In this document: piece by piece, positions 22,467-49,373 of the stretch
Numbering within the stretch: position 1 is the stretch's first letter
How the letters are laid out: each line of letters starts with the position of its first letter
DNA from: Rhypophila decipiens
Lineage: Eukaryota; Ascomycota; Sordariomycetes; Sordariales; Naviculisporaceae
Reading direction: 5' to 3'
NCBI GenBank assembly: GCA_033297075.1
Contig: MU858133.1
Location: forward strand, 96,585 to 160,584
Length of the DNA: 64,000 bases
Notes under the pieces: generated by a model
Databases searched by the model: none
Seen by the model: the letters and a program-made list of their open reading frames with translations, nothing else
Told to the model about the DNA's origin: nothing
Position numbers and translations under genes: made by a program

Positions 22467-23221
22467 GACCAATGGGTGAATTGTCTGGTCTTGACCTGGT
22501 GTCGTCGTCTTGAAGTACCGAGTAATCAAGATCAATAGCTGCGAAAGATAGAGACAGAGAGCATTGACATAAGTAAGGTCGATGGTCATGTAATAGTGGA
22601 CTGGTTCGTCACTTGTGAAGCTGGTGAGAATGGTTGCTTTGCTTGCCCCTGCTGCGTGAAAGGAGATCGGGGAAGGTCTTGGTCGACCTGTCATGCAGGT
22701 TAATATAATTCTTTGTGATGCCGTTGGAACTGGCTAGCACATATCCTTGTGCACGATCCAGTCTGCAATGACAGTCGGGTAGCACCGAGGAAGGAAGTCG
22801 CCGAGCATTCTTCACTGCAGTGGTGTTCTAGCTTATCGCTTGATTCGCTTCCATCTGACTGGAAGCGGAAATGACCACCTGGCAAAAGGAAGCGACGAGG
22901 TTGGATTCTAGCCTCACATGCACAGTGACACCCTTCGTGGGGGCTGCAGCTTCGGAGCATCTCTTTCTCGGTGCTGCAGTCCTTGTTGGTATATCCGGCC
23001 GAGAAGTGACCCGGGCCAAGACCGCCTCCAACTGACCAATCGCAATTGCAGATTTCCGTATCATACTGTTCCGGCCCCCAAAACAGTACGGTTCAGAAAT
23101 CAACATTTGATTCTTATCTCTTGATTGCCCCATGGTGGAGACGGGGAAACGGCTGCCCCTTGTTGAAATCATCAAGTCTTTTCAACTCCAGTCGTCATAT
23201 CACTCAGGAGAAACCACACAC
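22467..23221. promoter_or_regulatory. Bidirectional promoter of the PKS and the UbiA prenyltransferase
   Basis: 755 bases between divergent starts. It contains one degenerate copy of the cluster palindrome (22993-23004). Part of the region (22467-22694) is also open in frame with the PKS. Confidence 0.6.
22993..23004. promoter_or_regulatory. Cluster palindrome copy 1 (9/12)
   Basis: ATCCGGCCGAGA compared with the palindrome TCTCGGCCGAGA. It lies in the PKS/UbiA divergent promoter, 218 bases before the UbiA start and about 527 before the PKS start. Confidence 0.5.
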
Positions 23222-24385
23222 ATGTTGTCCGCGTCCAGCATTCCAACTCAGCTCTTTTCCACCATGACTCCCAAGGCTTCCACCAAACAAACCTCTCAGC
23301 GAGATGTTGCCCTTGGCATCTGGCGACTTGCCCGCTTTCACACCCGCGAGGCCTGGCTCTGCTGGTATCCGGCTGTCTGGGGGGCTTGTGTCGCAGCTGC
23401 CACTCAGGGTGTCTCTCTCGATCTGTACACATTTGCTCGAATCCTGTTTGGCATTTGGAGCAGTGTGACGGCTACTCATGCCGCATTTTGCACTTTCAAG
23501 TAAGTCAGGTCCTCCCTCTATCTTTCAGCCATTCGAGCACTAACAATGGTGAAAAGTGACATCTGCGACCGGAATCTCGATGCGCTCGTGGATCGATGCA
23601 AGACTCGGCCCCTTCCCGCAGGAATGCTCACCGTCCAAGAAGCCATCGCCACTTTTGTTACATGGATCCCGCTCACCCTCTATACCACTCGTCTCACACT
23701 GGGCGATGCCGCAGCCACGGCATTCATTCCCGTCTGGGTTCTGAGCTTCGTCTACCCCTTTATGAAGCGTCTGATCCCGTTCCCTCAAGTGGTTCTAGGC
23801 GCAGTTATTGGAGGTGCCGTGTTTCCAGGCTGGGCCGCGGTCACGGGTCAGCAACTCCTGGAGGGCGAGCTCAACGATGCGATGCCCCTTTTCTGGGCCA
23901 CCTTCTTCTGGGTGATTTACTTTGACGTCATCTATGCTACTCAGGATTCGCCCGACGATGAAAAGATTGGTGTCAAGAGCCTGGCTGTTTTGTTGGGCAA
24001 GAACGTCAAACTGTTCTTGGCGAGTCTGGGCGGTCTCCAAGTTGGACTTTTTGCACTGGCTGGGGCGAGAGCCAACTTGTCCATGGTCTTTTGGGTCTTG
24101 GGACTAGGGGTCTGGACGCTGAGTATCCCGTGGCATTTGAAGACACTGGACCTGAAGGATCGACATTCGGGTGGGCGGGTCTTTATGGCGAATATCAAGC
24201 TTGGCTTGTATCTGACTGGCATTACCCTGGTTGAGTTGGCCCTAACTCGGGTCGAGTTTATGAGTGGATTGAAGGTCCCAGGGGCGGACAAGATGTCTGT
24301 TGTTTTGGAAAGTCTGGGTCTTGGCGAGAAGATGACGAATGGGTCTGCGATTGGCGCTCAGAGCGTTGTGCAGGGAGTTTGGTGA
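23222..24385 (+). CDS. UbiA-family aromatic prenyltransferase
   Basis: Two exons, 23222-23499 and 23557-24385, about 368 residues. Membrane-bound enzyme that attaches a prenyl chain (probably farnesyl) to a phenol. The first Asp-rich motif NDICDRNLD spans the splice joint and the second is YATQDSPDDEKIGVKS; both bind Mg-diphosphate in this family. Hydrophobic helices follow throughout (TWIPLTLYTTRLTL, VVLGAVIGGAVFPGW, LFWATFFWVIYFDVIY and others). The C-terminal 50 residues are unusually extended and soluble. The start at 23222 (MLSASSIPTQ) is used; MTPKAS at 23264 has the better context (CCACCATGA). It resembles YanG-type and UbiA enzymes of meroterpenoid clusters. The acceptor is inferred to be toluquinol or a related m-cresol derivative. 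Confidence 0.9.
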
Positions 24386-25601
24386 AACAGCCCGGATGGT
24401 TTGGGGGTTGGCAGGGGAGTGAATGACGGACCAGACGACAATGGTTGGGTATTTACAGGTGATAACGATCTTGGGGTGGTCAAGTTGTGGTATCTGCTTG
24501 ATGCGATATTAAGGTTGTTTGGTTTGTCACTAAAATCACTAACAGAGGAAAGGTTACTATACTATAACAATCAAGATGTATTTTCTGCAAGTTCTTGCAT
24601 CGACGTAAATTTCCAATTTCTATTTCCATGCCACCTGACGTTGGGTTCCCATGAAAAGGCCACTTAAATACAAAAGTGAAATAATTGTCACAACAAATGG
24701 ATACTCACTCTGTTTGGTCATAGACGACTACCCAGATGAACTGTCCAAGATAATACATATACGGAAGATTTTCTTAGCTAGTCAAGGTTCAACTTCCATC
24801 CTTTTGTTCCTGTCCTTCCTCGGACCAGTATCGGAATAAAATGACGCCCCAACATCTTATCCCTCACCTCAAAGGACTGACAATCAAACCCAAGGGAGAC
24901 TGCTGATAACGATGATAATGAGCCCGCGGCTCAGTCTGGTCAGATCTCCCTAGCAATAACTGAGAAATGTTGCTTTGTCGACCGCACCCCGTTAACTGAT
25001 GCCACATCCGTTTTGGGAATATAGGGCACTTTGCTGCATGCCAAGCCTTCGGGTCAGGGGTATTCAGGGGTCCGAATATCTCGGCCGAGAAGTCAACAAA
25101 CCCCAACCAATCACGTTGAAATCCGGGCTGCATGAACCGTGCCGCCGTGATGGTTGTGAGTAGAACATTCTATGAGCGGGGAGATGCCATCTGGGTGGGA
25201 AGAGTCAATATATGCGAGGCGAGCCTTCTGTAGTGCAACGTGTGTGGGGGTTCGTTGCCCTGTTTCTGGGAAGAGCTGAATAGATTGCGGCTAGCAGCAA
25301 GGTCCCCAGGTCCTATTGTAGTAATATCCCACCCGGAGATGTCATTGCTATCGTGCGATTGAGCTCAATGTGGCGTGGATTCTTTACCATGGGAGGAGCC
25401 AAACCAGACGGGCAATAGTCCATGCGGCGCTCAGGGGCAGATACCCGTAGTAAAGTTCTATCCGCCTGCACATATAAGACCTAGTAGATACCAGGTATCA
25501 TTTGTTGTATCAAAGCTTGACCTGCCCGGTTGAGTGCAGTCCTTCTTACTTGCACCACGTGAGTGCCCTGTCGTCTGCGTCCTGCTGTCATACTCGCCAA
25601 G
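24386..25601. promoter_or_regulatory. Intergenic region with promoter of the FAD oxidase
   Basis: 1.2 kb without a gene. It has a perfect cluster palindrome at 25079-25090 and a TATAAG-like site near 25475, about 125 bases before the oxidase start. Confidence 0.55.
25079..25090. promoter_or_regulatory. Cluster palindrome copy 2 (12/12)
   Basis: Exact TCTCGGCCGAGA, 512 bases before the FAD oxidase start. Confidence 0.75.
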
Positions 25602-27279
25602 ATGCTTCGAGGTAGCATTGCAGCCGTCCTTGGCTGTGTTCTTTCTCTGCCAATCGCTGTCCATGCTCGACCTTCACGGGGGGGAGAACAGTATGACCCC
25701 GCCGTCATCCAAGCCATGGGCAACGCAAGTCGTCCTCCGCTTGGCAATCCGACTTTCACCTGCCGAGCTCTCGATATTGCCTTTAGCGGGTCCAGTGTCG
25801 TTACACTGCCCAACAGCACCGTGGGAGCCTATGAAATCCTTACTGAAGTGAACTAGTAAGTCAATCACGACAGCATGCTACCCAGCCTTGTCTGACATGC
25901 CCTAGCTCCGAGACTTGCTGGCTGACTCCAGCTTGTATCGTCACCCCGAGGACAGCAAGTGAGACCGCTCGGGTTATCAAGATCATCGGGTCGGTGCAGA
26001 CCAAGTTTGCAGTCCGGAGTGGCGGCCACAAGTCGGCTCCTGGCTTTGCTAGCATTGATGGTTCGGGTGTCCTGATTAGCCTGGCCAATCTTACCACAAT
26101 CTCCTTGTCCGGCGACAAGTCGTCGGTAGTAGTGGGAACCGGTAATCGGTGGCAGGCCGTCTATGACTTCCTTACACCCCAGGGCCTCACTGCCGTCGGT
26201 GGACGGGTTGGCATGGTGGGCGTTGGCGGCTTCCTTCTAGGCGGTATGTACACGTCGCAGTCCACTGCATCTCAATTGTGCCTAACAGGACTGGAACCCT
26301 TCTAGGCGGCGTCAGCTTCATGACCAACGAGCGCGGCCTGGGCATTGACAATATCAAGTCCTTCGAGGTCGTCCTCGCAGACGGACGCATCGTCACGGCC
26401 AGCGCCACCCAAAACAAAGACCTCTACCGTGGCCTCCGAGGTGGCGCATCCAACTATGGCATCGTCACCGCCTTTGAGCTCTACGCCCATCCCCTAGGTA
26501 CCATCACCTTTGAAGCCCGCGCGCTCAGCCTCAACCAATCGACCAATGCCATTCGCGCCTTGGCAGAATACCAACTCTCCGCCACCGGCCAGAAAGCAGA
26601 CCCCTATTCCCGGATCGACGTAACAATCACCAAAACAGCCGTCAATGTTCTTCTCCTGCACACAAAGCCTGTCGCCTCTCCGGTCCCTGCATTCCAGCCA
26701 TTCTACAACATTGCCCCTTTTACACCATTAGCTCCATCCACAAACGCTACCTTGACCACGCTGCTGTTCTTGTCAAAGCAAGCCTTCCCAAATGAACACA
26801 TTCGCGTTCAAGGCGGGACATTTACCCACACCGTCAACGCAGATTTCATGGTCCAGGCGTACAACATCTTCTTAGCTGAGACTGCCAATCTCCCGACAGG
26901 AGCGACAGCTACTTGGGTACCGATTGCCATGCCCGCCAGTGTTGCGTCTTTTGCGTCCCGAAACGGCGGGAATCTACTCGGATTATCGGCCGTCCCGCAG
27001 GTATGGTACGAGTGGTACATCAACTGGAAGAATCCAGCAGATGATGGAGCAGTAGCGGCCACTGTCAAGAATGTGAGGGAGAAATTGGACAAAGCCGCTA
27101 GACAAAAGGGCGTGTTGCTGCCGTATCTGTTTATGAATGTCGCCGGACGGGAGCAAAATGTGCTGGCGAGTTTTGGCAAGAAGAATTTGAATGAGATCAA
27201 GGCTGTGGCGAGAAAGTATGATCCCTCTGGGGTGTTTCAGCGGCTCCAGAATGATGGATATCTCATCCGAGATGCTTAG
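25602..27279 (+). CDS. Secreted FAD-linked oxidoreductase (BBE-like)
   Basis: Three exons, 25602-25855, 25906-26243 and 26306-27279, about 521 residues. The N-terminal signal peptide is LRGSIAAVLGCVLSLPIAVHA. The PP-loop FAD domain has VRSGGHKSAPGFASIDGSGVLISL, where the His is the usual covalent flavin anchor, and GGRVGMVGVGGFLLGGGVSFM. The C-terminal berberine-bridge element (YDPSGVFQRLQNDGYLI) is near the end. Enzymes of this family carry out two-electron oxidations and ring closures; the YanF-type oxidase in yanuthone-like clusters is a likely relative. Several N-glycosylation sequons (NAS, NST, NLT, NAT) agree with secretion-pathway location. In this cluster it probably acts on the prenylated quinol or epoxyquinol. 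It is the only cluster enzyme with a signal peptide. Confidence 0.9.
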
Positions 27280-27779
27280 ATACTTGAAGACGGGACCGCA
27301 GTAGAGAATAGCTGGCTTGTGTTGAGTTTATTATTATTATTCTGTCACTGGCACTCTTTTTATTTGTTATTTAGTTGAGCTTTCGTTGTCTTGTTTTGTG
27401 TATCAGTAGTAGAAATAAAGTCAGTATGAAATCCGATTCGCAAATTGCCATGATGCACAACTCAACACTAAAAGCAACCCAATACTCTCCATATCGGATT
27501 AGACAGCAATCAGACTCTAGGTGCAGCTTTTTGAAATGTTTGGTATGTGAATGGAGGTATGGAGGACTATGCAAGTTCAAATAGGCCAAAGTGTCATTGA
27601 CAGCAAGTCAACACCAGTTTCCCGCCACCTCTTTCCCACACATTAACCATTGGCAGTTCCCACGCCTTCGCTGAGTACCTGTCAAAGTACTTGAGAGGAA
27701 AGTGCATAATAGTTCAAGGTTTCCATATTATCTATAAACCAAACAACACCAAATACAACTTGAACCAGACAAAGACCAC
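27280..27779. other. Convergent 3' region between FAD oxidase and cupin genes
   Basis: 500 bases between two stop codons, AT-rich (TTATTATTATT near 27330). It holds both 3' ends. No gene seen. Confidence 0.4.
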
Positions 27780-28661
27780 TCAAACGTTCTTCTTGGTCTC
27801 ATTCTTGGCAGCCCACTCTTCATACCCGCCCGCCTCCTCGATATAAATCCCCTGATTCCCAATATCCTCGCCCCTCTTTACAAACTCAGCTCTTCGTTCC
27901 TTCTGCAAGTCCCGAATAGCAAATTTCCGCTGAGTCCAGTGACTGGCCATCTTATCACACGCAGCCTGCCAATCCGTCGTCCACTCTGGATAAAAGGGTG
28001 CGTACCCCAGCAATCCACCGATCCATCTGCCAATCACGATCCCCAGAAACTTCCCCAGTGGTCGTCTGAGTGGTCCCATCCACCACGGCGGGCTGAGGTA
28101 ACTATCCCCCGCATCAAACATACTCAGCACTTGGATCGGGTCCGGCTGGACGCCCCTCAGCAAGATATCCTCCTGGTAGCCATACCAATTCTCAAAGAAG
28201 GCCTGGTCAAGTTCAGCTGCTCCGCCTGAGGGACTCGCACTGAGCCAGAACTCGAGAACTGCATCAGGGGCTTGACCAGGCGTGGCGTACAGACAATGGT
28301 GCGGTCCAGGCGGGAGGGCATATTCCCCGTCTTCTTTTGTGAACTGGTGGGGCTTCCCGTTGATCTCGACTGTGAGGGAGCCTTTTTCAACCTTGAAGAA
28401 TTCCCATTGTCGCGGATGAAAATGTGTCGGTGGCTTTTTGCCGGATGCCGAGATTTGGATCACTCTGGGATGGTTGGGCTCGATGCGGACATGGAAGTGG
28501 ATGTTTCGTCCGGGCGGAGGGGTGTGTCGGTTTACCACGAAGGCGTTTTCGAATCTGATTGTGGCTAATTAGTAGATGGCAGGATGGAAGGGAAGTACAG
28601 GTACTCACTTGCTCACGGGGTTGGAGCCCGCTGTGTAGGCAAGGGGCTTTGCAGGTGCCAT
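27780..28661 (-). CDS. Cupin-domain protein with hydrophobic C-terminal segment
   Basis: Two exons, 28661-28609 and 28554-27780, about 275 residues. Cupin motif 1 is THFHPRQWEFFKVEKG (HxH, Glu and Gly of the metal site). Motif 2 is GEYALPPGPHHCLYA (PxG..H). All four expected metal ligands are therefore present. Residues around GKFLGIVIGRWIGGLLGY are hydrophobic enough for a membrane hairpin, unusual for a cupin. The tail is charged (RDLQKERRAEFVKRGED). Function is not known. Cupins in polyketide and meroterpenoid clusters act as isomerases, dioxygenases or epoxide-handling enzymes. Its position between the FAD oxidase and the P450, with a perfect palindrome 206 bases upstream, supports a role in this pathway. 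Confidence 0.85.
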
Positions 28662-29554
28662 GGTTGTTTAAGGTACAGATTGAAAAGGGGTAAAGATGAG
28701 TCGAAATGCTTGATGACCAATTTGCAAATGATGTGAGCGTTGGGAAGTCATTGCTCCTCGTTTTATGAACATCTTGCCCGTAAATCTTGTGACTGCATGC
28801 GAGTATTGGTGAAAACCCCGAGTGGTTCGTCGGGCCATGCAGCGGGCACGGCACGCACCGGGAGCCTCTCGGCCGAGAAAAACATATAAGACGAGCAACC
28901 GCAGGAATCGTACGACAAGTTCCTGAAATGCACGATTCTGCTTTTTTAAATCAGAAAAATGAACTCGGGGATTAGTCGGTCATGGAAACGGAGCAAGTCG
29001 AGCAAAAGGGGCCTTATCCGGGGACGAGGCCGAGGGGATTGATAGTGTCATTTGTTCATAACCCTAACCCTGGGCATTCATGTCTGCCAGTCTCATAAAC
29101 TGAACAAGGCTTAGAGTCCTGCTAGCCCCTGTCAATACCCGCTCTTTGCTTTGACATTTCAATGGAATGATGAAACAAAACGATAATCGTAGAAACTTTT
29201 ATATGAGTATTCGATGCTGCAAATTTGGACGTCTTGTTGTGAGTATTTGATCCCGAACCTTAGACATAGAGTATGTAACATGACACGGACAAGGCCAGAC
29301 AACGATCAACCACCTGTCATAGCCAAGGTGACCTTTCAAAAGGAAAAATATTCACTACAGAGAATTTTGCTTTATGTGTGAAATTTGCAGTCATGAAAGC
29401 AGGGCTATGAGCGCTACACACAGTGTACAGCAGAACAAACAGAATGATATACTCAAAATCAACTACTCTGAAAGAAGTGTCAAGACTCTTCTGTTCTCAC
29501 TTTGCCATAACACTGCAATGCTGTACCAGACACAAAAACCAATAAAACGGTTAC
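28662..29554. promoter_or_regulatory. Cupin promoter and P450 3' region
   Basis: About 890 bases. It contains an exact cluster palindrome (28867-28878) and a short (TAACCC)2 telomere-like tract at 29059-29071. No gene seen. Confidence 0.5.
28867..28878. promoter_or_regulatory. Cluster palindrome copy 3 (12/12)
   Basis: Exact TCTCGGCCGAGA, 206 bases upstream of the cupin start. Confidence 0.75.
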
Positions 29555-31264
29555 TTATCCACGATACTTGCTAAAAACCTCCACATCAGCCTTCTCAAAC
29601 TCACGTAAAATAGTCTTGGCCCGTTCCCCACTCCTAACCGTGACCTTGCAAGGAAAGTCCGCAGGGCAAACCAAAAAGCCCTCGGTGTATCCCGTCGTCG
29701 GATCAGTATCAATCGGAAGCTTAAGCCCAGTCTTTTCATCAACCACCTGCTCGAAATTGAACCCCCACAACAATTTCGCCGTCCCGAGGAACATTTCCCG
29801 CTCGGCAAGATGAATTCCCGGGCATATTCTTCGCCCAGCCCCGTAGATAAAATGATCTCTGTCAACTCCCGAGGCAGTGTACTCTGCTGCTGGACGAGTC
29901 TGGTTTGCGAACCGGTCAGGGTTGAATTCATCTGGATTCTGAAATCGCTCGGGGTCATGGTGTAAGCCCCAGACGTTGAGAAAGACGGTTGTGCCCTTTG
30001 GAAGGAAGAATTGGCGACCATCCGGGGTTGTGATTGTGTCGTCTTGGGAGAGGGCATGCGGGAAGGCCAAGGGAGTCACGGGTCGCCAGCGCATGGCCTC
30101 TTTGACAATCTGTGCGATATATGGCAGTCTGTTGTAGTCCGACCAGGCGGGTGAGGCTTTGTCTGTACAGACCGCGTCAATCTCAGCTTGTGCCCGGCGT
30201 TGGACTTCTGGGTGGAGAGTCAAGGCTTGGATGACCACCAGCATCATTGTCGAGACTGTGTCGGACCCGCCTTCCATGAGCACACCACCGATGAAGTCGC
30301 GCTGGTTTTCTGTCAGGGGCGTCTGGGACTTGATGTTGTTGCTGTCGAGGACTTGGTCCATGAATGTGGGGACTTTTTGGGATCCGGAAGCACGCCGAGC
30401 GATGACCTGGGCTTTCATCGAGCTATAGAGGCTCTTCATCCTATTGCCGACGTCGAGAGATCGCTGAACCCAGTTGTTGAACAAGCTCTCGGGCGCATAC
30501 TTGAGGAAGGGGAAGATATCGACCGGAGGGGTGGCGCCAACTTCCATGACCTCGGACCAGCGCTCCATGACGGCGTATAGTTCCTTCATGTGGGGAGTTT
30601 GGTCCGAGTCGGTGCGGATGCCAAAGACAAGTGACATGATGATGCTGTTGCTGGTTCGCTTGGTATGGCGCATGTGATTTTCGGGTTTGACGAGAAAGTC
30701 TCGCATCATTTGGACTTGTTCAGCGTCGACCAGGGACTTGATCTGCTCCGACTCGCACGCTGTTTCACGGAAGAACTGGTGAATTGCCCGGCGGAACGAC
30801 CGCCATGTCTCGCCGTACTTCATAACCAGCAGATGGTCGCCCTTTGTGATCAGGTCATGCGAGACGTAAGATGGCGGTCTGTCGCTGTAGATAGCCGATT
30901 TCTTGTCGAGCAGGTCTTTGACAATTTGCCGGTCTGTAATCACCACGGCAAGCGCCGGCCCCATCTTAAGACTGAAGATGCCGCCATAGGTCTTGGCCCA
31001 TTCTGTGAACCTGCCATGGCGCAATTATTGTTAGTGAAAGACGGACCGAGTCAGAAACCAAGGGGTTATTACTCACAGGCGATGGGCGCCAGTCTTGGGA
31101 AGTTGATGGAGGTTTCCAATGAGTGGAAGGCCTGGAGGTCCGTCTGGTGGACGCAGTGCTTGGGACTTGGGATGGGTGGACATGGCTGCCATCAGTAGTT
31201 TGACGACAACGTAGACCACTGTTCCTGTCACCAGGAATGGCACGAGAGGAGAAGCGAGAGCCAT
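29555..31264 (-). CDS. Cytochrome P450, m-cresol/toluquinol hydroxylase type
   Basis: Two exons, 31264-31077 and 31010-29555, about 547 residues. N-terminal anchor PLVPFLVTGTVVYVVVKLLM, then the proline hinge RPPDGPPGLPLIGNLHQLP. The I-helix is GGVLMEGGSDTVSTMML, ExxR is VKEAMRWRP, the PERF-type block is FNPDRF, and the heme loop is FIYGAGRRICPGIHLAER with its Cys ligand. The sequence style (GGSDT, YGAGRRICPG) matches the P450s that hydroxylate m-cresol or m-hydroxybenzyl alcohol in patulin and yanuthone biosynthesis. With the adjacent decarboxylase this suggests conversion of m-cresol to toluquinol or the benzyl alcohol. It has a weak palindrome (10/12) 248 bases upstream. The exact position hydroxylated is inferred. 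Confidence 0.9.
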
Positions 31265-32108
31265 GGCTCTTCGGTGGTTGGCAAGAGTGATCGTTAGTGG
31301 AGAGAAGTAATCGGAATTCCACGATACCCAGCCACGAAAATGTGGGTGTTCGGCAACTTGTAGAGGTCGTTCTGCCCGAATGATTTTCTTATATGATGTA
31401 GCACGATGTGAAGACGTACAGCCTGTTTATACATGCTCGAGTAGGATTCACACACGGTGGTAAAGTAATGATGAAAGCACATACACCCAGGTACCATTGT
31501 CAGGGGTCAGGGGTCGGCCGAGAATAAAAAGCAATACGGCTTGCCGTTTACCTGCTTGGATGGTCTGATTTCCGTTAATTTTCGGAGAATCTCCCTGTAC
31601 ATACAGCATTCCAAGCTCAAGTGTCAAGTTACTTTACCTATTTTGTCCATGCGTGACCTACTGTGGGGGAAAGCCATATATATACTACTGAGCCAAACAC
31701 GCCTTTCGGTGATTGCAGTCATCTTTTGGTTGTGTGGTTCAGTGGTTGAGCGTTTTCGCTCCTTAGACCTACGTTATATTAGGTAATGTAGCTTACTTTC
31801 GACACAAGCCATCTGATTGGCCTTCAAAGTTGGGTATTCACAAAATATCAAGACTTTTCAAAGTGCTGAGTAAGGTCCTTGAATTTGTCAATTGGCCCCT
31901 TTAGGGTCCTGAGTAAGGCCGCCCGTTGTGCAGGTGGTGCCAAGGCTTCCAAGAACTTGGTACGCAGCATGCGCAGCATCACAGGCATTTGCGAGTAGAC
32001 TAATGCACATTTTCGATAGGAATCACACGCATTTATTCCTATATTGAACATCTCAAGGAGGAGAAGATGATGTGTTCATTTTCGCCACTGCAAGCGTGCG
32101 CCGGGCAT
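31265..32108. other. Intergenic region: P450 promoter and decarboxylase 3' flank
   Basis: About 840 bases. It holds one palindrome copy (31512-31523). A minus-strand ORF (32051-31848) ends in a helical charged stretch (ALLRTLKGPIDKFKDL). It could be a remnant of a gene but has no recognisable family. Confidence 0.4.
31512..31523. promoter_or_regulatory. Cluster palindrome copy 4 (10/12)
   Basis: GGTCGGCCGAGA, 248 bases upstream of the P450 start at 31264. Confidence 0.6.
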
Positions 32109-33089
32109 TCACTCCTGTTCCCCCTTCCCGCGCAATCTAGGAAATAACTCCAAAGCAGCCCCCCGGTCCACAGAATATGCCGTGTCCTGGTCCAATCTCT
32201 CTGCAACATACTCATCAAGCATCTCCACATGTGTAGTGATGGACTTGGTGGGCGCATATGGGAAATCGCTTCCATACAGGATATGCCCGGGCTTGGCAAA
32301 CCTGAACAGCAATTCCAGGGTAAGAGGATTTCCAGACAGTGCCAAGTCAAAGTAGAAGGACTTGGCCTGATCGAGAAAATCGTCCGCAGAAATATGGCTG
32401 GTCAGCCCAAAGTCAGACAGCAGGTGGGCTGCGCGAGTTGCCAAGTACGGCAGGGTGCCTCCTGCGTGGGAAAGAATGATCTTGACGTTGGGGTGTTCTT
32501 TGAAGGTGCCCGATGTGATAAGATCCACAGCCGTTCGGGTCGTCTCGTGAGGATAGTCAATCACTGGCTGAGGAAGAACTGACGAGACCAAGTCGGCGCC
32601 GACCGAATGGGTTGGGTGAATGAAGACCACAGCTCCGCGCTTGTCGAGCTCATCCCAAAGGGAGCCGAAACTGGGGTGACCCAGGTAGTGCTTGCCATAG
32701 CGGGTGAAGAGCGTGACGCCATCAGCCTTGAGGGTGTCAAGTGCGTACGAGACTTCATCCAGAACGGCGGGGAGATTGTCAGCCAGCGGAGGCAGGGTTG
32801 CGAAGAAGCCAAAGTTGTCGGGATGCTCCTTGGCGATGGCTGCAGCGGCCTGGTTGATCTCGCGAGCTAGAGTGTTGGCTGCCTGCAGGTCTCCTTCTAG
32901 AACAGTTGTCCCGGGAGACGTGATGGAGAGGATCGCTGTCTTGGTGCCGTGCGACTGCATCAAGTCGAGACTCGATTTGACAGACCACTTGGGCAGGGTC
33001 CATCCAGATGGGTCTCCTTTGGCAGATGCCTGGAAGGCCCTAACGTATGCCTCGGGCACAAAGTGATGATGGACGTCGATTCGGCTCAT
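32109..33089 (-). CDS. Amidohydrolase-2 family decarboxylase (6-methylsalicylate decarboxylase type)
   Basis: Single exon, 326 residues. Metal-dependent TIM-barrel enzyme of the ACMSD-like decarboxylase family. Visible ligands are the N-terminal HxH in RIDVHHHFVPE, the HPTHS motif near residue 158, the LSHAGG motif and the late Asp in YGSDFPYAP. The characteristic DNFGFFATLP stretch is present. PatG and YanB, which turn 6-methylsalicylate into m-cresol, belong here. Beside a 6-MSAS-type PKS this assignment is well supported. A TATATATA box lies about 80 bases upstream, and two palindrome copies lie 590 and 660 bases upstream. It has no membrane or signal segment and is probably cytosolic. Confidence 0.92.
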   Translation of the reverse strand: MSRIDVHHHFVPEAYVRAFQASAKGDPSGWTLPKWSVKSSLDLMQSHGTKTAILSITSPGTTVLEGDLQAANTLAREINQAAAAIAKEHPDNFGFFATLPPLADNLPAVLDEVSYALDTLKADGVTLFTRYGKHYLGHPSFGSLWDELDKRGAVVFIHPTHSVGADLVSSVLPQPVIDYPHETTRTAVDLITSGTFKEHPNVKIILSHAGGTLPYLATRAAHLLSDFGLTSHISADDFLDQAKSFYFDLALSGNPLTLELLFRFAKPGHILYGSDFPYAPTKSITTHVEMLDEYVAERLDQDTAYSVDRGAALELFPRLRGKGEQE

Positions 33090-33166
33090 GTTGTTTGAAA
33101 TGATGGGCGCGGTAATTCGGTGTTATGAGTGAGTAATTGGGAGACCGAAGACAATTGATGAGCTGG

Positions 33167-33677: not shown

Positions 33678-33689
33678 TCCCGGCCGAGA
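33678..33689. promoter_or_regulatory. Cluster palindrome copy 5 (11/12)
   Basis: TCCCGGCCGAGA, 73 bases from copy 6. Such pairing is common for real operator sites. Confidence 0.65.
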
Positions 33690-33750: not shown

Positions 33751-33762
33751 TCTCGGCCGAGA
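33751..33762. promoter_or_regulatory. Cluster palindrome copy 6 (12/12)
   Basis: Exact TCTCGGCCGAGA in the decarboxylase/P450 divergent region. Confidence 0.75.
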
Positions 33763-34774: not shown

Positions 34775-34786
34775 TTTCGGCCGATG
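34775..34786. promoter_or_regulatory. Cluster palindrome copy 7 (9/12)
   Basis: TTTCGGCCGATG, 211 bases upstream of the P450 start at 34997. The core TCGGCCGA is intact. Confidence 0.5.
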
Positions 34787-34996: not shown

Positions 34997-36905
34997 ATGG
35001 CAGCAGAACATAGCTTCACCTTCGTCTTTGCATGTGGCGCTTTGCTGGCATATGCCGTCTACCATGTCATTCGGGCCATCTATCTCATCTACTTTAGCCC
35101 TCTCGCGGCCTTTCCCGGCTCTCCATGGGCGGCTCTTGGTGAATAGTGAGTACCATCTCCTTGTCTCATGATTCTCAGCTGTCTCAGCCCCATGTAAAGT
35201 GAGAGGACTCGCTAACCAGTACTGCCCGTTGAAAATCCCTCAGCTGGGAAGCATGGCACAACATTGGATCCAAAGCCGGAAAGCGAGGACAGACTCTGTT
35301 TCTCCTCGAGAAGATGCATCGAGATCCGAAATATGGTGAGCGTCCCCGCCAGCACAACTACTTGTTATAGGTACTGACCTGTCAATTCGCGCCCAGGAAG
35401 TGCCATCCGCCTAGGCCCCAACGAAGTGCACATCTACGACCCACGCTACTTCCACACTCTCTACTCCCTCAACACGCAATTCTACAAAGACCCCTCCATG
35501 CACAAAGTCTTTGGCGCACCCTCCTCTACGCTGGCCGAAGCTGACCCAGTCAAGCACAAAGCCCGTCGTCAGCCCTTGGAGTCTCTCTTCTCACGACAAT
35601 CTGTCCTCAAACTGGAGCCAATGCTCCTGACAAAGATCGACCTGGCATGCTCTCGTTTCCGAGACATGTACAGCGCCGGTAAGCCCGTCAAGGTCGAGTG
35701 GGCGCTCAAAAGTCTCAGTTTTGATATGGTCTCGGAATTTTGTTTCGGCCAGAGTCTCGGTGCCTTGTATCATGATGATTTCATGTCCGATGGCGTTCAG
35801 GTATTCCGGACCTATCTGAATAGCTTGCATGTGATCAAGGCTTTCCCGTTTGTGAGGGTCCTGTCCCAGAGCTTGCCGCTCTGGTTGGCGAGACGGGTGA
35901 GCAAGACTATTGCTCGTGGTAAAGAGTTGGAGATTGTAAGTTGCCCCCTCAATATCTCTCAATAATCAAAGGTCTTTTTATTGACTTGACAAGTTCATCA
36001 AATCCCGAGTAGAAAGCTTCGTCAGGGCCTATGAGGGCGGGTCCCGTCCATTGTTCCCAACACTAATGGAACGTCTCCTCTCGGCCAACGCAAAGCAGCA
36101 AAAGCTTTCTCAAGGCGGGGACCCAACCTCGCTCCAACAGTGGAAATCCCACGACAACCTCCGCGACGAAGCCATCACCATGATTTCCGCCGGAACAGAC
36201 ACAACCGGCATCTCAGCCCTCGTCGGTCTGTTCAACATCATCCACCATCCGCACGTCCAAGACCGACTGCTCAAAGAGCTGAGAACCGTCTTGCCGGGCA
36301 AAAACGACACTGCGCCATTCACAGTCATTGAAAAGCTACCCTACCTCACTGCTGTGATTAAAGAGACCTTGAGGTATGCCAGTCCGGCCGCTAGTCGTAC
36401 CCCAAGACTGGTCCCCAAGGGCGGCACTACGCTCCCCGATGGACGTTTTATTCCCGAGGGCACGAGAGTCGGCATGGCCATCTATCATGTTCACTATAAC
36501 GAGAACATCTTTCCTGAGCCGAGAAAGTTCATGCCGTAAGTCATCAGTCTGCTCCCCGCTCTTCGGCTTTAAGCAATTTACCAAGACAATGGACTATACT
36601 GACCCACGCCATCCAATAAAACCATTTCCGCAAATAGTGAACGCTGGCTAGACGCTTCCCAGGGTGGCATCATGCCCGAACGTCTGCCCGAAATGAACAG
36701 GTTCCTCGTCGCCTTTAGCAAAGGGACCCGGGCTTGCCTGGGTATCAACCTCGCGTACATGGAGCTGTACCTCACATTAGCCTATCTCATCCGTCGGTTT
36801 GACTTCCAGACGAACACTACTAAAGAAGACATGCGCTGGGATGACATGGTTGTGCCGTCGTTTTACGGCGAGTTTACAGTCATGGCAAAACCCAGGGCTG
36901 ATTAG
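34997..36905 (+). CDS. Cytochrome P450 (trichodiene-oxygenase-like group)
   Basis: Five exons, 34997-35145, 35244-35335, 35397-35935, 35994-36535 and 36638-36905, about 529 residues. N-terminal anchor [31 protein letters not shown] with FPGSPWAA; then the fungal block [18 protein letters not shown]. The I-helix is [14 protein letters not shown], ExxR is [10 protein letters not shown], and PERW is split by the last intron. The heme loop [18 protein letters not shown] has its Cys ligand. This subtype matches fungal P450s acting on terpenoid and meroterpenoid substrates. A role in oxidising the prenyl chain or the ring after prenylation (YanH-like) is inferred. It is divergent from the decarboxylase, and all splice phases agree. 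Confidence 0.9.
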
Positions 36906-37110: not shown

Positions 37111-37451
37111 TTATTGTGTTTGCATTTTAATTTTCTTGAATGCCAGCCCTGCCAATCTGAATTGCACGTTAGCGCTGAGGTAGTATAGAGATGAACATCT
37201 TCGCCGCATGATTCCATCAATGTTCATTCCGACCTCTCTCTTGCCCTCTTCGCACCTCATAGTCCGTTCGAGTTCATCGGGCTCGTCATCCAAAGTGTAT
37301 TGTCCATCAAAACCGCGGAATTCGGCAATAGAACAGTCCCTCGGATCGGCATAGAAAAATAGGTCTCGACTAACTGCATAATATTGTGCCATGTCATATA
37401 TGCACCAAGAGCAACTAATGGCAAAGGAGGCGGGGAGATAGTAGAGACCAC
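37111..37451 (-). pseudogene. Truncated paralogue of the 38569-39360 gene
   Basis: The frame ending at 37111 has YADPRDCSIAEFRGFDG and DDEPDELERTM. These align with YANPRDCHFLDFRGVDG and DDELDELERTI of the intact neighbour. Upstream, the matching piece (FVVSTISPPPLPLVALGAYM against YFFAVASEGGLWALAV) lies in a different frame, so at least one frameshift separates them. No start or N-terminal half was found. It is best read as a decayed partial duplicate. Confidence 0.7.
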
Positions 37452-40553: not shown

Positions 40554-41697
40554 TCAAGCAAATGAGGCGAGCGCGGGATCCACCGCCGCGACATCCTGGA
40601 CTGTCTCCTTCCAGAGACGTTCGGTGAATTTCTTCCCGTCTGACTCGTTGAGCCACGTGTTGCCCCTGAAATATACCAACATAAGAGGTTAGCGCTGATA
40701 TGTGGACCGCCGGAGGATCTGGTGCTGGAGGTACTTACTCCGCGACAGCGTTGTGCTGAATGAACTTGCCGTTCGACTCCGGACCCGCGACTGCAGAAGC
40801 ATAAACCAAGGTCCTAGCACCCTCCTCGACCGTGCGGCCCATGGTTTTGCGCATAAGGACCATGGTGGTCTTGAGCAGGAATGGCAGATTCTTATCCAGT
40901 CCTGTTTGCACAAGACCCGGGCAGAGATGGTTTACAATCACCTCGCCCGGGGCAATCTGACCAAGTTTGCTGACACAGGCGGCCACTGCGAGCTTGGAGT
41001 CCGCATAGCGGCCCATGTTGGTCGAGGTGGCCCTGTCGTCCAAGATGGGCATCAGGGCCTTGTCGGCAGCAGGAAATGGTGTCAGGGATGTGGGGAAGGC
41101 GACTTTGTTGACGTGCATGCCGGAGCCGGTGAATGAGACATGGGTAGGGGACCCGCGCTTCGCAGCAGTGGCGCGGAGCAGAGGGAAGAGCTCGAGAGTG
41201 ACTAGGATGTGCGTGTAGCAGTTTACTGTGGTTGTTTGGGTAGATTAGCCGTCGTAATCACTATAGTACGCCTGCTTGGTACTTTCGTGGGGCTTAATCT
41301 TCTTACCTTGCATGTGCCGCTCGTGCCCAGTTTTGCTTGTCTCATACTTGATGGTGGCGATTCCGCCATTGTTCATGAGAATGTCCAGCTCGGGTACCTC
41401 GTTCTTGACCTTTTGCGCAAAACGAAGGCCGGATTGGTAGTCGTCCAGATCCAGCTCGAAGACGTCAGTGACGGCGCCGGGGTTATGCTTGGCAACTTCG
41501 GGGTCGGCCCTGAGCGTTGTAACGGCTTCCTTGGCCCGGGCCACCGAGCGACATGCTAGAATGAGACGCGCTGCGCCGAGGATCAGATATTGGCGTGCGG
41601 CCTCTAGGCCCAGTCCGGCGTTGCCACCCGTGACAATGACGGTTTTACCAGCCAGCGAAGTGCCCGCTGGCGTTGGTGGAATCCTTGGCTGGCCCAT
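40554..41697 (-). CDS. Short-chain dehydrogenase/reductase
   Basis: Three exons, 41697-41307, 41225-40739 and 40665-40554, about 329 residues. NAD(P)-binding TGGNAGLG near residue 24, a DLDD motif, NNGG (variant of NNAG), and the catalytic YADSK with Ser upstream in VSFTGSG. Size and motifs match the WWOX/retinol-dehydrogenase-like SDRs found in many fungal clusters. In this cluster it could oxidise a quinol or alcohol of the epoxycyclohexenone (YanD-like), which is inferred. The last exon (NTWLNESDGKKFTERLWKE...) is typical of the family C-terminus. An in-frame ATG at 41820 would add 41 residues. A palindrome (10/12) lies 347 bases upstream. Confidence 0.88.
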
Positions 41698-44600
41698 GGT
41701 GCAAGTGATTTGCTGTGCCCTGAGAGTGTCCGTTGCTGTATGCAGTGGATGTTGAAAGATGTCACTAGCGGATTTGGATTGGTGGATTTGGTGATGTAGT
41801 TTGATAACGTCGCGTGTCAAAGTTCCGAATTGGGGCCTTCACATTCATCGCCTGTGCTTTGGCAAGAACGACAAACACAAAAGGATCATGCAGCGGAGCC
41901 CAGGCCAGCAGATATAACCCCAAGGAGTCCACAAAGCCACGAAAAGGATTAGAAATCATGGTGCGATCACATGAGCCAAAAAGTCTCCGTCGTTTAGAAT
42001 GCCGTCGTCCAGTTTGGCCGTGTTTGTTGTGTCGTCAACGGTCTTCCGGCCGAGAGATGTGACTGAAGGGCCATTTGGTAGGTCGCGATCGGGCTAATTG
42101 ACCCCCGTTCCGGAGACTTTCACACGGGACGCGGCGCGAATCGAGATCGATGAGATTCCATGCAGGTCATGTGGCTGCCTGTATCAGCACAAAGAATTGA
42201 CACACCTCAGCATCTCATTGGTTCGATTATTCATGCAAGATATTAAGTAATCCCGTGACCCCCACTTTTGACGGATTTTCCCGTCGTCTCGGTCTTTCTT
42301 TGCTCCTCCCCCTCCCTCCCTCGACCCTCCGCTCCGTGTTGTTCATGGAGAGGGGTATTAGAGGCGGTCTGCTGGCCCGACACCTTGCATGTAACAGAGA
42401 GACCACAAGTACCAGATGCGCTGTTCCTCCGTTCAGTGGTTGAATCTACGAAAATACTGCGATTTCGAGCAGTGGGATTCACGAAAACCCCAGACCGCAA
42501 TGCAGCCATGGCTTATCTTAGTCACAGTACTGCCTCTTGTTTTCGTCTTGAAGCCATAGGGCATCAACCCCCAGCATTTGACTTTGATCTTTCAGTTCGA
42601 GACATGAGGTCGAATTAGAGTAAGTTCTACACGTAATCCAGTCCAAGACCGCTAAACAAAGCTTGACCTATGCCAAGGCCGAACGTTGGTTCATCCTTGG
42701 AGCCAAGCCGAGCTCCCGTTGTCAGACACGCCGGACAGGGTATATGATGCCTTTAATATACGGACACAAGCAAATTGTCCAGTTTATTTTCTAGATTAAT
42801 CGTCTTACTACACGTATCTGCGTGCACACGCCCCGAACTCTGATGATTGGAATCATCCACCCATTCTTCGTTCTACTATGCTAGTTCAATCCTACAATGA
42901 GACGTTAAAGTAACATCGGCTAATATCAACTGTGCGACTTGGTCCTGTTGTGCAGCCCGCGCGTCAACTGCGGTGTACTGCCTACCCGGTTCCTAGCTGA
43001 CAAGGAGGAGTCGTAATGAGGAAACAGCCCATATGATAGCTTGCAGGACAGGCGAATTCTGCTCTGTGCGCGGTTTCCATTTTGGTTCCCGATGGCCTCG
43101 CTTCTTCGCGCCTTGTTTACTCACCTTCCATACCGAGACTGAGTCAAGCAATACTGGACGTACCCGGACATAATCTGTCATGCCCGTTCCTTGCACGGTT
43201 ACAATTTCCCACCCGCTCTCGCCGCGTAGATTCCACTACCCCGGCTCGAGTTGCATGGTTGATATTTGCGTTATGGTTATCTGAGTTATCAGTGATGGGG
43301 TCGTTCTGCGAAACTAGGCTCATTTCAGCTTTCGACAATGAAAACAGCGAAAGCGAGAAAGATACGGAGTAGAAACTAGTGCTCCGATCCTTTGCCAAGG
43401 ACACGAATCTGATGCTAGTTTTGAGATCTGTGGCTGGTATCCGTCAGCCTGCAGTAGTGTCCTTTTCCCGTCACTTTAGTGTCTTCTCAACGGCTCAACG
43501 CCCCGGTTACGGATACCTGTGCTCCGATTAGCCCATCGTGTCTTTCCATTTGACTGGCTGTCCTTGGTGGGATTGTGAGCGGTTTGTCTCCATTAGTCGC
43601 TGATAGCATGGACACACCACAATCGGAAAATAAATCGTACAATGGGTGAAGGCCCGGTCCTAAACCACAAGGAGATAGGTGCTCGAAATGGGAATACTCG
43701 GTGTTTCTGTCCGCCTCTCGGGTTCCAGAGCCTTCTATCCATTCAATCTCGCTCACCAGCAAGGAGCGACGAGGGGCCCAAAGTTCCGTTTTCCGGTCGG
43801 ATCCAGGCTTGGATGCGGCACAACGGGAAAGGCCTAGGGGTCAGATTTTGGGCGAACCGGGGTTGTGTCATCAGTCATGGTTACAATGCGGCTAATGCGC
43901 CGACCACATGCGCCATGATAAGCCTGTTCACCCCCTCTCAGATGTGTTATTGAGCCCTTGATCGGGATGACCTTACAGCGCCCATTGGGCAGTGTATGAA
44001 CATGAATGGTTGCTGAAGGCGTCATTAGGGGCTTGTCTACAAACGTCAAGGCTTGCCTCAGCAAGTCGTACCCAGTTCCCTTCCCTAAATCGAGATCGGC
44101 GATGGCTTGCATTCAATACTTTCTTGATAGGCAGTGCCATTATTCCCTCCGAAGAGTCAATCCACGCCACCTCTGTGATACCCCTGTTATGAACATACTC
44201 AGCAAGGAAAGCAAGTCAACAATCGAACGTTCAAATTCTCCACAGCCCTCCATGACTTGCCGTCTCTACTGCAGTCTAAACCGCTGTTCACCAGACTGTT
44301 CACTATCCCTCCAGGATTTTCATTATCTCCGCCTCACTACTGCCTTTCGTTGTCTGACTCTCACAGCTTGCAAAGGGGCTCCACAGGAACAGCTGCTCTC
44401 TTCGGTGACCAAGAGGACTGTAATGACTAGGTACCTTGCGTATTGCTCGTGGTGGGACCGCTCAGCTGCGAGACTAAGGCGAAGCTGATAACAGAGGGTT
44501 TAAAGTGATTCCACCAGTTTCTACACGTGTACATCCTGGCCTCAACTGCTACCCTCTTTCGTCTCACTATTGGCCGACCCAACTATTACATAACTTCCCA

Positions 44601-44841: not shown

Positions 44842-47800
44842 ATGCATACCGACGACGACAATCCATTGTCGGCTTACACCAGATCATCGGAACCCCATTT
44901 GGTCGCAGCTGCGAAACAACATTATCCACAACAACGACAACGGCAGACAGCCATGGGCGAAGGGCGCGTCATTACTAGAACGCGTCCTTCCCTAACTTGC
45001 ATTCCGTGCAAAAGGAAGAAGGTAAACATGGCCGAAAACCGTCAAACGATCTCGTTAGCTGTAAAATCGTGCTAAATCGAAATCCTTAGATCAAATGTGA
45101 CAAACAAAAGCCAGTTTGCTCCCAATGCGGCCGATCGAGCGCTACATGCTTTTACGAGACCATTTCGGCACCAGCATCGGAAAGCGGTCGATCGTGGGGG
45201 GCTGGAGTTAAGCGGGCAAGAAATGGGCAAAGCCACGCAATGGTCGCTCAGGCAAACGGGAACGTTTTCCAGTCGCAGCAAGATATGGACTCAGACGCAC
45301 AAAGAGGATCCAGAGAATCAACTCAGGGGCCGACAAATCACCAACTTGCAGGTGGCGAGGAGATGGCCATGGACATGGACATGATGATGCAGTGGCAATC
45401 AGAAACAGCAAACGAAAGCCACTCGGAGCATAGGGTACCAGTCGGGATGCACTCGGACTTTGGCAATATGGAGGCCGAAATGTCCAACTTTCTGGACGAG
45501 ACGTGCCCACTTTTCAGCGCGGCAGACTTGAAAGAGATGGAGAACTTTTATCATACCGTTCATTCACCCGAGTTTCTGCGGGAAGCCGCCCCGTGCTCCG
45601 CAGCTTCCGCTGCAGCTGCCGTCACAACGGTCCCCACTCCGCCCGCTACCGCCGGCAGCAGCGGGAGTAGCACCGGTCCAACTGTGTTCAACAGTTCCCA
45701 CCTTGCACCTTCCCTCTCAGGCTTTCCTGGACCGGCCGAAAGCTCCACCAATACCCGGAAGGAGACTCGGAGTGTGAACAAGGCCTCGGTCTCCGTCACA
45801 AATCCTCTTTCCCCGCGACATCAGCAACAGCAACAACACTACCAACGGCATCGAAGTCACCAGGAAGAACAGCGGCAACAACGAGCTTCGTCTACAACCA
45901 GTATGGATACGCTCGACTTTGACGACAAAGCAGCTCGGCCACGGCGGTATATTCCCCGTGAGAATGAAGGAACCTTAGCCACTCCGGCCGGAAACCTCCT
46001 CATAAACAATGCTCCAGGGCATCACGTCCGGTTTCTTGGCAGCCCGTTCTGGGCCTGGACCAGCACCAGTCAGGTAAGATACCTGACCCCGATGAAAAAC
46101 CATGGCACTTGGCCGATCCTGACAATGGTGCCTAGAAATCACTGGGAAATATTCTCCTCTCCAGCCACCTCTCACAGCACCAGGCCAGCCAGATGCACCA
46201 CTGTCGACAGGCAGAGCTGTCCCGGATGATGCAAAGTTTACCTCCGAAGAAGATGTGTGACATTCTGCTGGACTCGTTCCTTCTCGGAGTCCAACCTCTT
46301 CTGCCCATGGTGCATGTCCCAAGTCTGCGAAGCCGTTATGATGCCTTTTGGTCCCAGTTCTCCAGAAACCGCCATACTCGATCAAGCAGCACTCCTCCAA
46401 TGCCCGACATCATGCCTGCACTGAAAGAAGATCCATCCTTTGCCTCCTTGTTGTGGGCTGTTCTCTATTGCGGAGCGGTGGCCGCGCCTCCGAACCTCTT
46501 GGCACGGGCTTCGTTCAAAGTCAGCGACAAATGGACTTTCCTCTCACGGTTAAGATCCTACGTCAACCAGGCCTTGCATCTCAGTGGACAAGCCAAGTTT
46601 CCAACTCTAGACGGACTCGTCGCCTCCATCCTGGCCCAATGGTGCGACCCTGGCGTGGACCAAATCATCGACATGCCGCCCTTCATCGCTCAATGCGTGC
46701 AGGCTGCCCGCGTGTTGGGGCTGCACAAAGACGACGCCTTGGCTGCAATGTCTGTGACAGATGCACAGACTGGTCGCATGGCCTGGCAGCATGTTATGGA
46801 ACTTGAGATCCTCGCTACAGTGTGCTCCGGGGCCTGCCTGGCATTCTTAAGCAGCGACGAGTCGTTCGATATGCCGCCCCCTCTGAAAGTGACCGACATC
46901 GCCCTTGACTCAGTATTGACCTCCTCATCGTCCAGGATTCTGGCAACGGGCCGTCTGGAGATGATCCGTATTATGCGACGCATCATCAAAGTGTGTTACT
47001 ATACCAGCAGCAGCAGCAGCAAGGGCAGTGATAACGCGGCCTCTTACCCTACCAAGGATGACATCAAGAATCTCTCAAAGGAAATTGAGTCCTTTGAAAA
47101 CATAATGGATGCTCTCATCGGACTGCTGAATGTTCGAGGTCAGCCCGAGCAGGGGCAAATCTCATCTCTCCTACTTGGCGCGAATCCACTTGTCCACGGC
47201 GAGCTCTACACAGACAACCCGCGAGACATCACCGTGCCAAATGCATTCTACCGAATCATCCTGACCATGATGAAGTTCTTTGTCTCTGTCCTATTCAACA
47301 GGCAGTTTCTGCAGCAGCGGAATCTCAGTAATGAGCAGCAGAATAACGACGAGGGCGATGACAATGTCCGCATGATCTGGAACCTGCAGCTCTCCAACTG
47401 TGTCCAGCTCATTCGCAACTATCTCGATCTTTCCAGACTCCCTGCCTTTGTCCCTTACAGATGGCTATGCCCGGGGAAGGTGGATTGCTTTCAAGAGTGC
47501 ATGATTGTCCTCAACTTTCTGAAGGAATATCCCGAGGCGATGAGCGAGCGTCAGCTGTTGCAGTATCTGCTTAGTGAGGTATTTGACATGTTTGACTCGA
47601 GAGTGCAGATGGCCGGTATGGGATCCGGAACCGGGAGCTCCACAGACGACGAGTATGATTCAGAGCAGAGGAAGAGGCAAAGTGGCAAGACTGCGAGTTG
47701 GCTGGTTCTGCGACAGTTGTTTGATGAGGTCTTCAACGAAAGTCAAAACGGGCGAGACGAACCTGTCGGCGCAGCTGAGGATGAGGATGACGAGATGGAA

Positions 47801-48523
47801 AGCGAGGACGATGCTGCTATGGAGGACGACGGCGACGAGTCTGACCATGCCACATTCCAGCTTGGACAGCACCGGACCTCATATCCGCCGCCGCCAACGC
47901 CAATGAACTCGATTATTCTTTCCCCACAGCCCCAGCACCCTCGCCGTCTGGGCCAGAGCTTCAATACGGTTGATCGCCCGCCGCCACAACAAGAGAGAAG
48001 GTCCCGTGCTTCAACGAGCACCAGTGCCTCTGGCACTTCGAACCCAGACCGTGACCGCCGAACTCAGTCCAATTACCCCGATGTTGGACAGCTTCGGAGA
48101 GGTGTTTCATTTCAGGGAGAATACCCAGCACGTAGACTCCGTCCCCACCAGAGCCAAGATGCACGATATCAAGAGCAAGAAAGACCATATCCTACCAGCA
48201 GACCATACAGTACTGCACTGGCCAGCGACGGATACGAAACCAACAATACCACATTCACGATACCCAACGGATGGATTAAACAGCATCCCACCCGACTTTC
48301 TTCGCCAACCAACGCAAATATGATAGCCAGGGCGGATGGTTTCGGCATCCAGCCCATCACGGCCTCCAGCTCAAGCAGTTCGCTCCGATCAGCCGGGAAG
48401 AACAGCGCTAAGGAACCAGGACTACCACATTCTTTGCCATGGTCTCTCGCTAGACCGTCGACAGGAATCAATAGCTCCGCCGTCGATGAGATGCCTGATG
48501 AATGGTTGGATGTCCTGAGCTAG
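44842..48523 (+). CDS. Zn2Cys6 transcription factor 1 (fungal-specific TF domain)
   Basis: Three exons, 44842-45021, 45090-46073 and 46136-48523, about 1183 residues. The zinc cluster is split by intron 1 and reads CIPCKRKKIKC...VCSQCGRSSATC, all six Cys present. A long Gln/Ser/Thr-rich linker follows. The middle homology region begins near KMCDILLDSFLLGVQPLLPMVHVP. A strongly acidic segment (AEDEDDEMESEDDAAMEDDGDES) may act in activation. The C-terminal 200 residues are disordered and Arg/Ser-rich. It lies beside the second regulator and is a candidate pathway activator. No palindrome was found in its own upstream region. The start is the Met at 44842; no upstream in-frame alternative was examined. 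Confidence 0.88.
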
Positions 48524-49373
48524 GAATACATCACACTGATGTGGCATATATTACTGGCATGCTTTTTGTATATAATATCAGTACCACCAACATAGACTCT
48601 ATCACACGGCATGATCTACATAGCTTACAATCCATGTCACTTTCCACTGTTTTTCATGTCGATTGAATACTCGACTTGGTGACAATCTCTCACTCGGCAA
48701 GTTAGTGTCTAACTGTAAGGTACGGATATAGACCAATGAACGAACGGGTGTGCTGTTCATTCCACCATGAACTGGATCTTGCTGACATTGTCGCACCACC
48801 AGTCACTGCACAGCCATCTGAGCTCTCTCCTTACGTATGTGGCAGGTCCATTCAATGACCCCCACTCTGTTTTCCAGTGTCAGATAAAATCGCATAGAAA
48901 CTTCCTCGGTGAGCTGGCAGGTGGATTGCAGGAGTTGTGTAACCATCGGTGCGGCTCAGCTCACCGTTTCTCGGCCGAGTGGGGGCCAGCACCTGGGCGT
49001 GGCCGGGGCTAGCGGTGAAGGATTTCCGGTACGAGAGTACTTGCTACACATGTGACATGGCTCATGTCCAGGTCGGCACTTCGGATCCAACGGCCTACCG
49101 CCTCGGTCAAGACTATCTGCCATCCTACCTCTCTGTGTCTCGCTGATACTAAACCCCACAGCGGGGAACTTGAAGATATTAACAGTAGTAAACCCTGGCC
49201 AGAGTTCCAGTTTGGTTTGAGAAACGAAAATACGACATCACACTACTCTGGACATAACTCCTCGTACATCAAGTACATGCCCCGTTGACAAGTTCATACT
49301 ATTGAGCAAGTCAAAGCCCTTGCTTCTTGGCACGTCATTACTAATCTCTTACCTATTCCTTGCCCTCCCTGCC
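48524..49373. promoter_or_regulatory. Intergenic region between the two regulators
   Basis: 850 bases. It contains palindrome copy 9 (48969-48980) and the promoter of regulator 2. Confidence 0.5.
48969..48980. promoter_or_regulatory. Cluster palindrome copy 9 (11/12)
   Basis: TCTCGGCCGAGT, 394 bases upstream of the regulator 2 start used here. It suggests autoregulation or control by regulator 1. Confidence 0.7.

Follow-up and report, generated by a model that had tools for sequence, protein, structure and literature searches.

A recurrent zero-spaced CGG/CCG palindrome in the promoters of a meroterpenoid-type gene cluster of Rhypophila decipiens, a candidate operator for an in-cluster Zn2Cys6 regulator

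The DNA examined here, referred to as the window, is a 64,000-nucleotide stretch of contig MU858133.1 of Rhypophila decipiens, a fungus of the Naviculisporaceae (Sordariales), the last 64 kb of that 160,584-base contig in a genome of 45.74 Mb and 408 contigs. It holds a run of enzyme genes followed by two genes for Zn2Cys6 regulators, TF1 and TF2, and copies of a 12-base palindrome, TCTCGGCCGAGA, lie between these genes (Table 1). Below, CGGCCGAGA denotes the one-sided 9-mer form of the palindrome. An initial annotation had proposed that the palindrome marks the promoters of one meroterpenoid regulon, and the rarity of the word in the genome, its position, and an unbiased k-mer search give good support to a promoter element shared within one meroterpenoid-type cluster.

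Domain matches and the names of decarboxylase relatives yield a gene set of the yanuthone/macrophorin type: a polyketide synthase (PKS) of the 6-methylsalicylic acid (6-MSA) synthase (6-MSAS) type, a class read from domain order only, a 6-MSA decarboxylase relative, a UbiA prenyltransferase, cytochrome P450s, an oxidase, and a dehydrogenase. Relatives of the amidohydrolase are named 6-methylsalicylate decarboxylase in several sources (among the best 120 of 4,251). No terpene cyclase or acyltransferase was found among the 35 open reading frames (ORFs) scanned of the 222 in the window, these being stop-to-stop ORFs of at least 90 codons, with the spliced FAD oxidase and regulators counted apart. 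The genes resemble the yanuthone/macrophorin-type set, from which we infer a product of that class.

Table 1. Cluster genes and copies of the palindrome, in window coordinates.
Feature	Coordinates	Strand	Match to palindrome	Basis or location
Polyketide synthase, KS-AT-DH(N part)-KR-ACP	16752..22694	-		Domain order like that of 6-MSAS; coordinates of the longest ORF, actual start possibly later
UbiA prenyltransferase, 2 exons	23264..24385	+		Domain match
FAD-linked oxidase (FAD_binding_4), 3 exons	25602..27279	+		Domain match
Cupin protein, at least 2 exons	27780..28661	-		Domain match
Cytochrome P450, first	29555..31264	-		Domain match
Amidohydrolase-2 protein (decarboxylase-like)	32109..33089	-		Relatives named 6-methylsalicylate decarboxylase
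Cytochrome P450, second	34997..36905	+		Domain match; introns only partly modelled
Short-chain dehydrogenase (SDR)	40738..41697	-		Domain match; coordinates without 3' exon
TF1, Zn2Cys6 regulator, 1183 aa, 3 exons	44842..48523	+		Zn_clus match
TF2, Zn2Cys6 regulator, AflR-type domain, 629 aa, 3 exons	49374..51424	+		Zn_clus match
Site 1, ATCCGGCCGAGA	22993..23004		3 mismatches (9/12), one half-site intact	PKS/UbiA gap; 260 bp to UbiA ATG, 299 bp to longest PKS ORF start
Site 2	25079..25090		Exact	512 bp upstream of FAD oxidase ATG
Site 3	28867..28878		Exact	206 bp upstream of cupin ATG
Site 4, GGTCGGCCGAGA	31512..31523		2 mismatches (10/12)	248 bp upstream of first P450 ATG
Site 5, TCCCGGCCGAGA	33678..33689		1 mismatch (11/12)	589 bp upstream of decarboxylase-like ATG
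Site 6	33751..33762		Exact	662 bp upstream of decarboxylase-like ATG, 1,235 bp upstream of second P450 ATG
Doubtful site, TTTCGGCCGATG	34775..34786		3 mismatches (9/12), neither TCTCGG half intact	211 bp upstream of second P450 ATG
Site 7, TTCCGGCCGAGA	42044..42055		2 mismatches (10/12)	347 bp upstream of SDR ATG, 2,787 bp upstream of TF1 ATG
Site 8, TCTCGGCCGAGT	48969..48980		1 mismatch (11/12)	394 bp upstream of TF2 ATG

The nine copies reported by the initial annotation are present with the scores it gave (3 exact, 2 at 11/12, 2 at 10/12, and 2 at 9/12), as are the four 10-bp cores within 24 kb (at 25080, 28868, 33752, and 48970). All nine lie outside modelled coding stretches, in seven promoter-bearing intergenic regions, and they span the gene map from the PKS to TF2. 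CGGCCG, an inverted CGG/CCG pair at zero spacing, is found in 9/9 sites, in agreement with the half-sites described at the outset. A full TCTCGG half-site is joined to CCG in eight of the nine promoter CGGCCG cores, the exception being 34775, and the TCTC/GAGA extension accompanies 8/9 promoter cores versus 2/20 other cores in the window (Fisher p 9e-5). A full TCTCGG half-site with a CCG directly adjoining it describes the element better than does a symmetric 12-mer whose mismatches are spread evenly. Mismatch counts against the symmetric 12-mer blur the site, because matches with 2 or 3 mismatches occur all over the window. When up to 3 mismatches are allowed, the window has 46 matches against 28.4 expected, so that a 9/12 match alone means nothing. 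The claim that no copies occur outside the cluster holds at 0 to 1 mismatch (5/5 window matches inside) and fails at 2 mismatches, where three of the six matches lie outside (4369, 9885, and 13875) and one falls in FAD-oxidase coding DNA (27261). On these grounds mismatch counting was dropped as evidence. Two copies of CGGCCGAGA in the window lie outside promoters, at 4372, within an ORF that matches MFS weakly, and at 20204, in PKS coding DNA.

The exact 12-mer occurs 10 times in the genome, and 3 of the 10 lie in a single 8.7-kb stretch of the cluster, a proximity reached in 0/2000 uniform placements. Seven further exact copies lie elsewhere in the genome, in which matches at up to 1 mismatch number 338. 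Six of these seven copies fall in ORFs 130 or more codons long, including CDC37-like and ankyrin-repeat ORFs, although an ORF does not prove coding. One of the six, in a 134-codon ORF and 200 bases before a hydrolase-like ORF, may well be intergenic. The sole other exact copy in no such ORF (C38:86409) has a HET-domain ORF on one side. The 10-bp core, expected by the initial annotation about once per megabase, is in fact present at 3.3 per Mb (151 copies), and the densest 24 kb among the first 50 of the 151 holds 2.

The one-sided form is more telling. CGGCCGAGA has 536 + 511 strand hits genome-wide at about 1,037 places, of which about 1,029 are outside the cluster promoters. Eight places fall in the 26 kb of the cluster, against 0.59 expected from the genome-wide rate; for the 9.4 kb of promoter-bearing DNA that holds all eight, this rate predicts 0.21. 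Of the first 99 places, which cover contigs C1 to part of C6, no more than 3 share any 26 kb. No CGGCCGAGA was found in 40 kb of random stretches, where the expectation of only 0.9 makes this no real control.

We also ranked all 8-, 9-, and 10-mers in the seven promoter-bearing intergenic regions (9,419 bp) by the number of regions holding each word, under a third-order Markov model. CGGCCGAGA came first among 9-mers, being found in 7/7 regions (p 6e-13). Random region sets of the same lengths were drawn 150 times from coding and non-coding DNA mixed, and 39 with overlapping stretches were dropped; the best 9-mer in the remaining 111 reached 1.4e-7, so that the cluster set surpasses 111/111. 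CGGCCGAGA is absent from the cluster's three other intergenic stretches (27280-27779, 36906-40650, and 51425-52226).

The clustering of the copies is not chance. An origin by chance, with the clustering of a GC-rich palindrome spotted only in retrospect, would fit a word that is common in coding DNA (151 copies of the 10-mer versus 50 of its backwards control), loose matches that barely exceed expectation in the window, and uniform placements in which seven CGGCCGAGA fall in 26 kb in 11/400 cases. Eight were reached in 0/400, however, and these simulations, the exact triples, the k-mer search, and the position of the copies between genes make this origin very improbable. It is hardly credible that the copies are parts of a dispersed repeat or transposon ends and not binding sites: several copies do occur within 26 kb, but the 17-base sequences flanking the nine, compared by eye with no repeat-finder run, hold nothing alignable, and a longer repeat around the copies was rejected.

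Two other promoter words were considered. ACTGCA/TGCAGT occurs 17 times versus 4.9 expected in the seven promoter regions (22814-48805), several times as TGCAGTCAT/C. It was rejected as a second promoter word, the longer form TGCAGTCAY being common genome-wide (346 + 363 = 709) and the signal weak after correcting for word number. CCAAT is not clearly enriched in the promoters (24 vs 19.3), yet one lies within 60 bases of 4/9 sites.

The regulator that reads the element may be sought in the two genes at the end of the cluster, both of which match the Zn_clus domain. Spliced TF2 is 100% identical over 629 aa to an R. decipiens protein. In homologue searches that scored about 8,000 candidates sharing most words, TF1 had five relatives (from R. 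decipiens, Naviculisporaceae sp. PSN 640, Diaporthe citri, a Xylariaceae protein, and a weak Chaetothyriales one), and TF2 had four, all from Rhypophila or PSN 640. Gene adjacency in these genomes was read from locus numbers, not DNA. R. decipiens TF1 (V8F06_010596) adjoins TF2 (V8F06_010595), near a decarboxylase relative (V8F06_010600) whose contig has the same length. PSN 640 TF1 (V8F20_012734) is likewise beside TF2 (V8F20_012733), with the decarboxylase relative on a different contig. In Diaporthe citri, the TF1 relative INS49_000074 is near the decarboxylase relative INS49_000079, and their contigs are equal in length. The DNA-binding segment of TF1 is 64% identical to that of the Diaporthe TF1 and 30% to that of TF2; by sequence, the two DNA-binding domains have relatives of solved structure in HAP1/CYP1, RSC3/RSC30, GAL4, LAC9, and PPR1. 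We prefer TF1 as the binder because it accompanies the pathway over the longer distance, to Diaporthe citri.

The palindrome is probably a switch site for a regulator encoded within the cluster. More specifically, we judge the chances to be evenly balanced that a pathway-specific activator, a TF1 dimer, has TCTCGGCCGAGA as its operator and switches on one yanuthone-type meroterpenoid cluster with TF2 downstream. A Zn2Cys6 protein, most likely the TF1 dimer, would read a complete TCTCGG half-site together with the inverted CCG that adjoins it. TF1 would thereby co-activate the PKS/UbiA pair, the FAD oxidase, the cupin, the first P450, the decarboxylase, the SDR, and TF2, and perhaps the second P450 from the intergenic region it shares with the decarboxylase. 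TF1 itself, whose start has no site closer than 2.7 kb, would respond to signals from outside, with TF2 as a target in the second tier.

Several observations weigh against this proposal. Four 10-mers within 24 kb arise in 20/2000 uniform placements, so the 10-mer alone is only modestly clustered and gives modest evidence, and the seven intergenic regions were taken from a gene map drawn up when the motif was already known. Two ORFs within the cluster span, at 37114 and 38572, have no site, since their upstream DNA lies within 36906-40650. The site that the initial annotation assigned to the second P450 (34775), the copy nearest to that gene, lacks the TCTCGG half-site. Finally, it is TF2 that has a site close upstream (394 bp), whereas the nearest to TF1 is at 2,787 bp. 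These distances suggest that TF1 stands above TF2, and self-activation of TF2 fits them equally well.

It is possible, if rather unlikely, that TF2 binds the palindrome and activates both the enzyme genes and itself through 48969, with TF1 acting above TF2 or through another site. AflR binds the palindrome TCG-N5-CGA, of which the TCG-N2-CGA found here is a spacing variant, and TF2 carries an AflR-type domain, has the candidate site before its own start, and, judged by locus numbers, keeps its place beside TF1 in two other genomes. The difference in spacing argues against TF2, as does the restriction of its relatives, among the candidates scored, to Rhypophila and PSN 640, whereas TF1 extends to Diaporthe, where it is close to a decarboxylase relative.

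Binding by a regulator encoded elsewhere, or of broad role such as the Far/Ctf or Pf2 type, with TF1 and TF2 acting through other sites, is unlikely. TCTCGG is one base from CCTCGG, the motif of FarA/FarB and CTF1 (PMC5068947), and motif M1 of PnPf2/AbPf2, RWMGGVCCGA, has inverted CGG and CCG triplets separated by a single base (PMC11419344). The roughly 1,029 CGGCCGAGA places beyond the cluster promoters, counted irrespective of promoter position, would also suit such a protein. Against it stand the concentration of the element in a single cluster and the location of most other exact copies within long ORFs.

Returning to TF1 as the binder, a wider proposal may be made, which we hold only tentatively. 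The element might represent an undescribed class of zero-spaced Zn2Cys6 operator, with an obligatory TCTCGG half-site and abutting CCG, read by TF1-type regulators that accompany 6-MSA meroterpenoid clusters across Sordariomycetes (Rhypophila, Diaporthe, and perhaps Xylariaceae), TF2 being a lineage-specific second-tier target. If so, the same word would predict cluster limits and co-regulated genes in these fungi. If the reading is right, the sites map the promoters of a yanuthone-type cluster in Naviculisporaceae and point to a candidate for its master regulator, and so offer a direct way to test the pathway and to switch it on. They would also allow a test of how two Zn2Cys6 modules read abutting inverted triplets.

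Another R. decipiens record has, in addition to the 96% relative of the decarboxylase, a protein (V8F06_009450) that is 85% identical over 81% of it; in the genome examined here, the closest paralogue found shows 53% identity. The locus of this paralogue (C116) was rejected as a sister cluster: of nine adjoining ORFs scanned, five had no family, and the other four are PNK3P-, epimerase-, nucleoside transporter-, and S41-type peptidase-like. The absence of CGGCCGAGA from 20 kb there is no real control, because only 0.45 is expected. Between the second P450 and the SDR are an imperfect tandem repeat of GACAAGA-type units (37989-38085) and a short internal telomere-like TTAGGG run (39753-39780). 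Elsewhere in the window, adjoining ORFs at 12764-15628 with NACHT-like (NPHP3_N) and ankyrin-repeat parts are perhaps one NLR-like fungal gene, and an ORF with a HeLo (prion-inhibition and propagation) domain lies near the contig end (61690-62571).

In open-licence full texts, the exact and core words gave no fungal regulator site paper by title, and searches for CGGCCG with Zn2Cys6, TCGGCCGA, Rhypophila gene clusters, and yanR gave no paper assigning the word this role. Support for the suggestion that the element is undescribed is limited to that literature. No published yanR or macR binding site was found there either. No protein named yanR or macR is among the five TF1 relatives listed, a direct comparison of TF1 with yanR/macR not having been made.

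As to its genes, the cluster is most like those for yanuthone (Aspergillus niger, yanR) and macrophorin (Penicillium, macR). Like them, it combines a gene set of the 6-MSA-derived meroterpenoid type with an in-cluster regulator. Overexpression of macR activates the macrophorin cluster, which is of related type (PMC7806857), and a yan-like cluster is reported in Xylaria hypoxylon (PMC8403587). The cluster described here differs in having two regulators and in the terpene cyclase and acyltransferase missing from the ORFs scanned.

As to its site, CGG/CCG triplets are the usual Zn2Cys6 contact (PMC11419344). Pf2 M1 is the nearest known motif in spacing, its inverted pair nearly abutting and followed by A, but it has a one-base gap and serves a genome-wide effector regulon rather than one cluster. 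The FarA/FarB and CTF1 motif shares the CTCGG half-site core, but is a single half-site of fatty-acid and cutinase genes; in both cases it is motifs, not regulators, that are compared. GliZ, of the gliotoxin cluster, is likewise an in-cluster Zn2Cys6 regulator with an inverted TCGG/CCGA palindrome in the promoters of its own cluster, TCGG-N3-CCGA (PMC7022936). The putative sites here depart from it, with a spacing of 0 instead of 3 and an extra TC/GA flank common to them. The AflR site has the same TCG/CGA arms and, as the initial annotation had noted, a different form, its spacing being 5 and that here 2. An in-cluster operator of this sort is a known kind, as GliZ and AflR illustrate, and it is the zero spacing and the TCT/AGA flanks that set the present element apart from those two.

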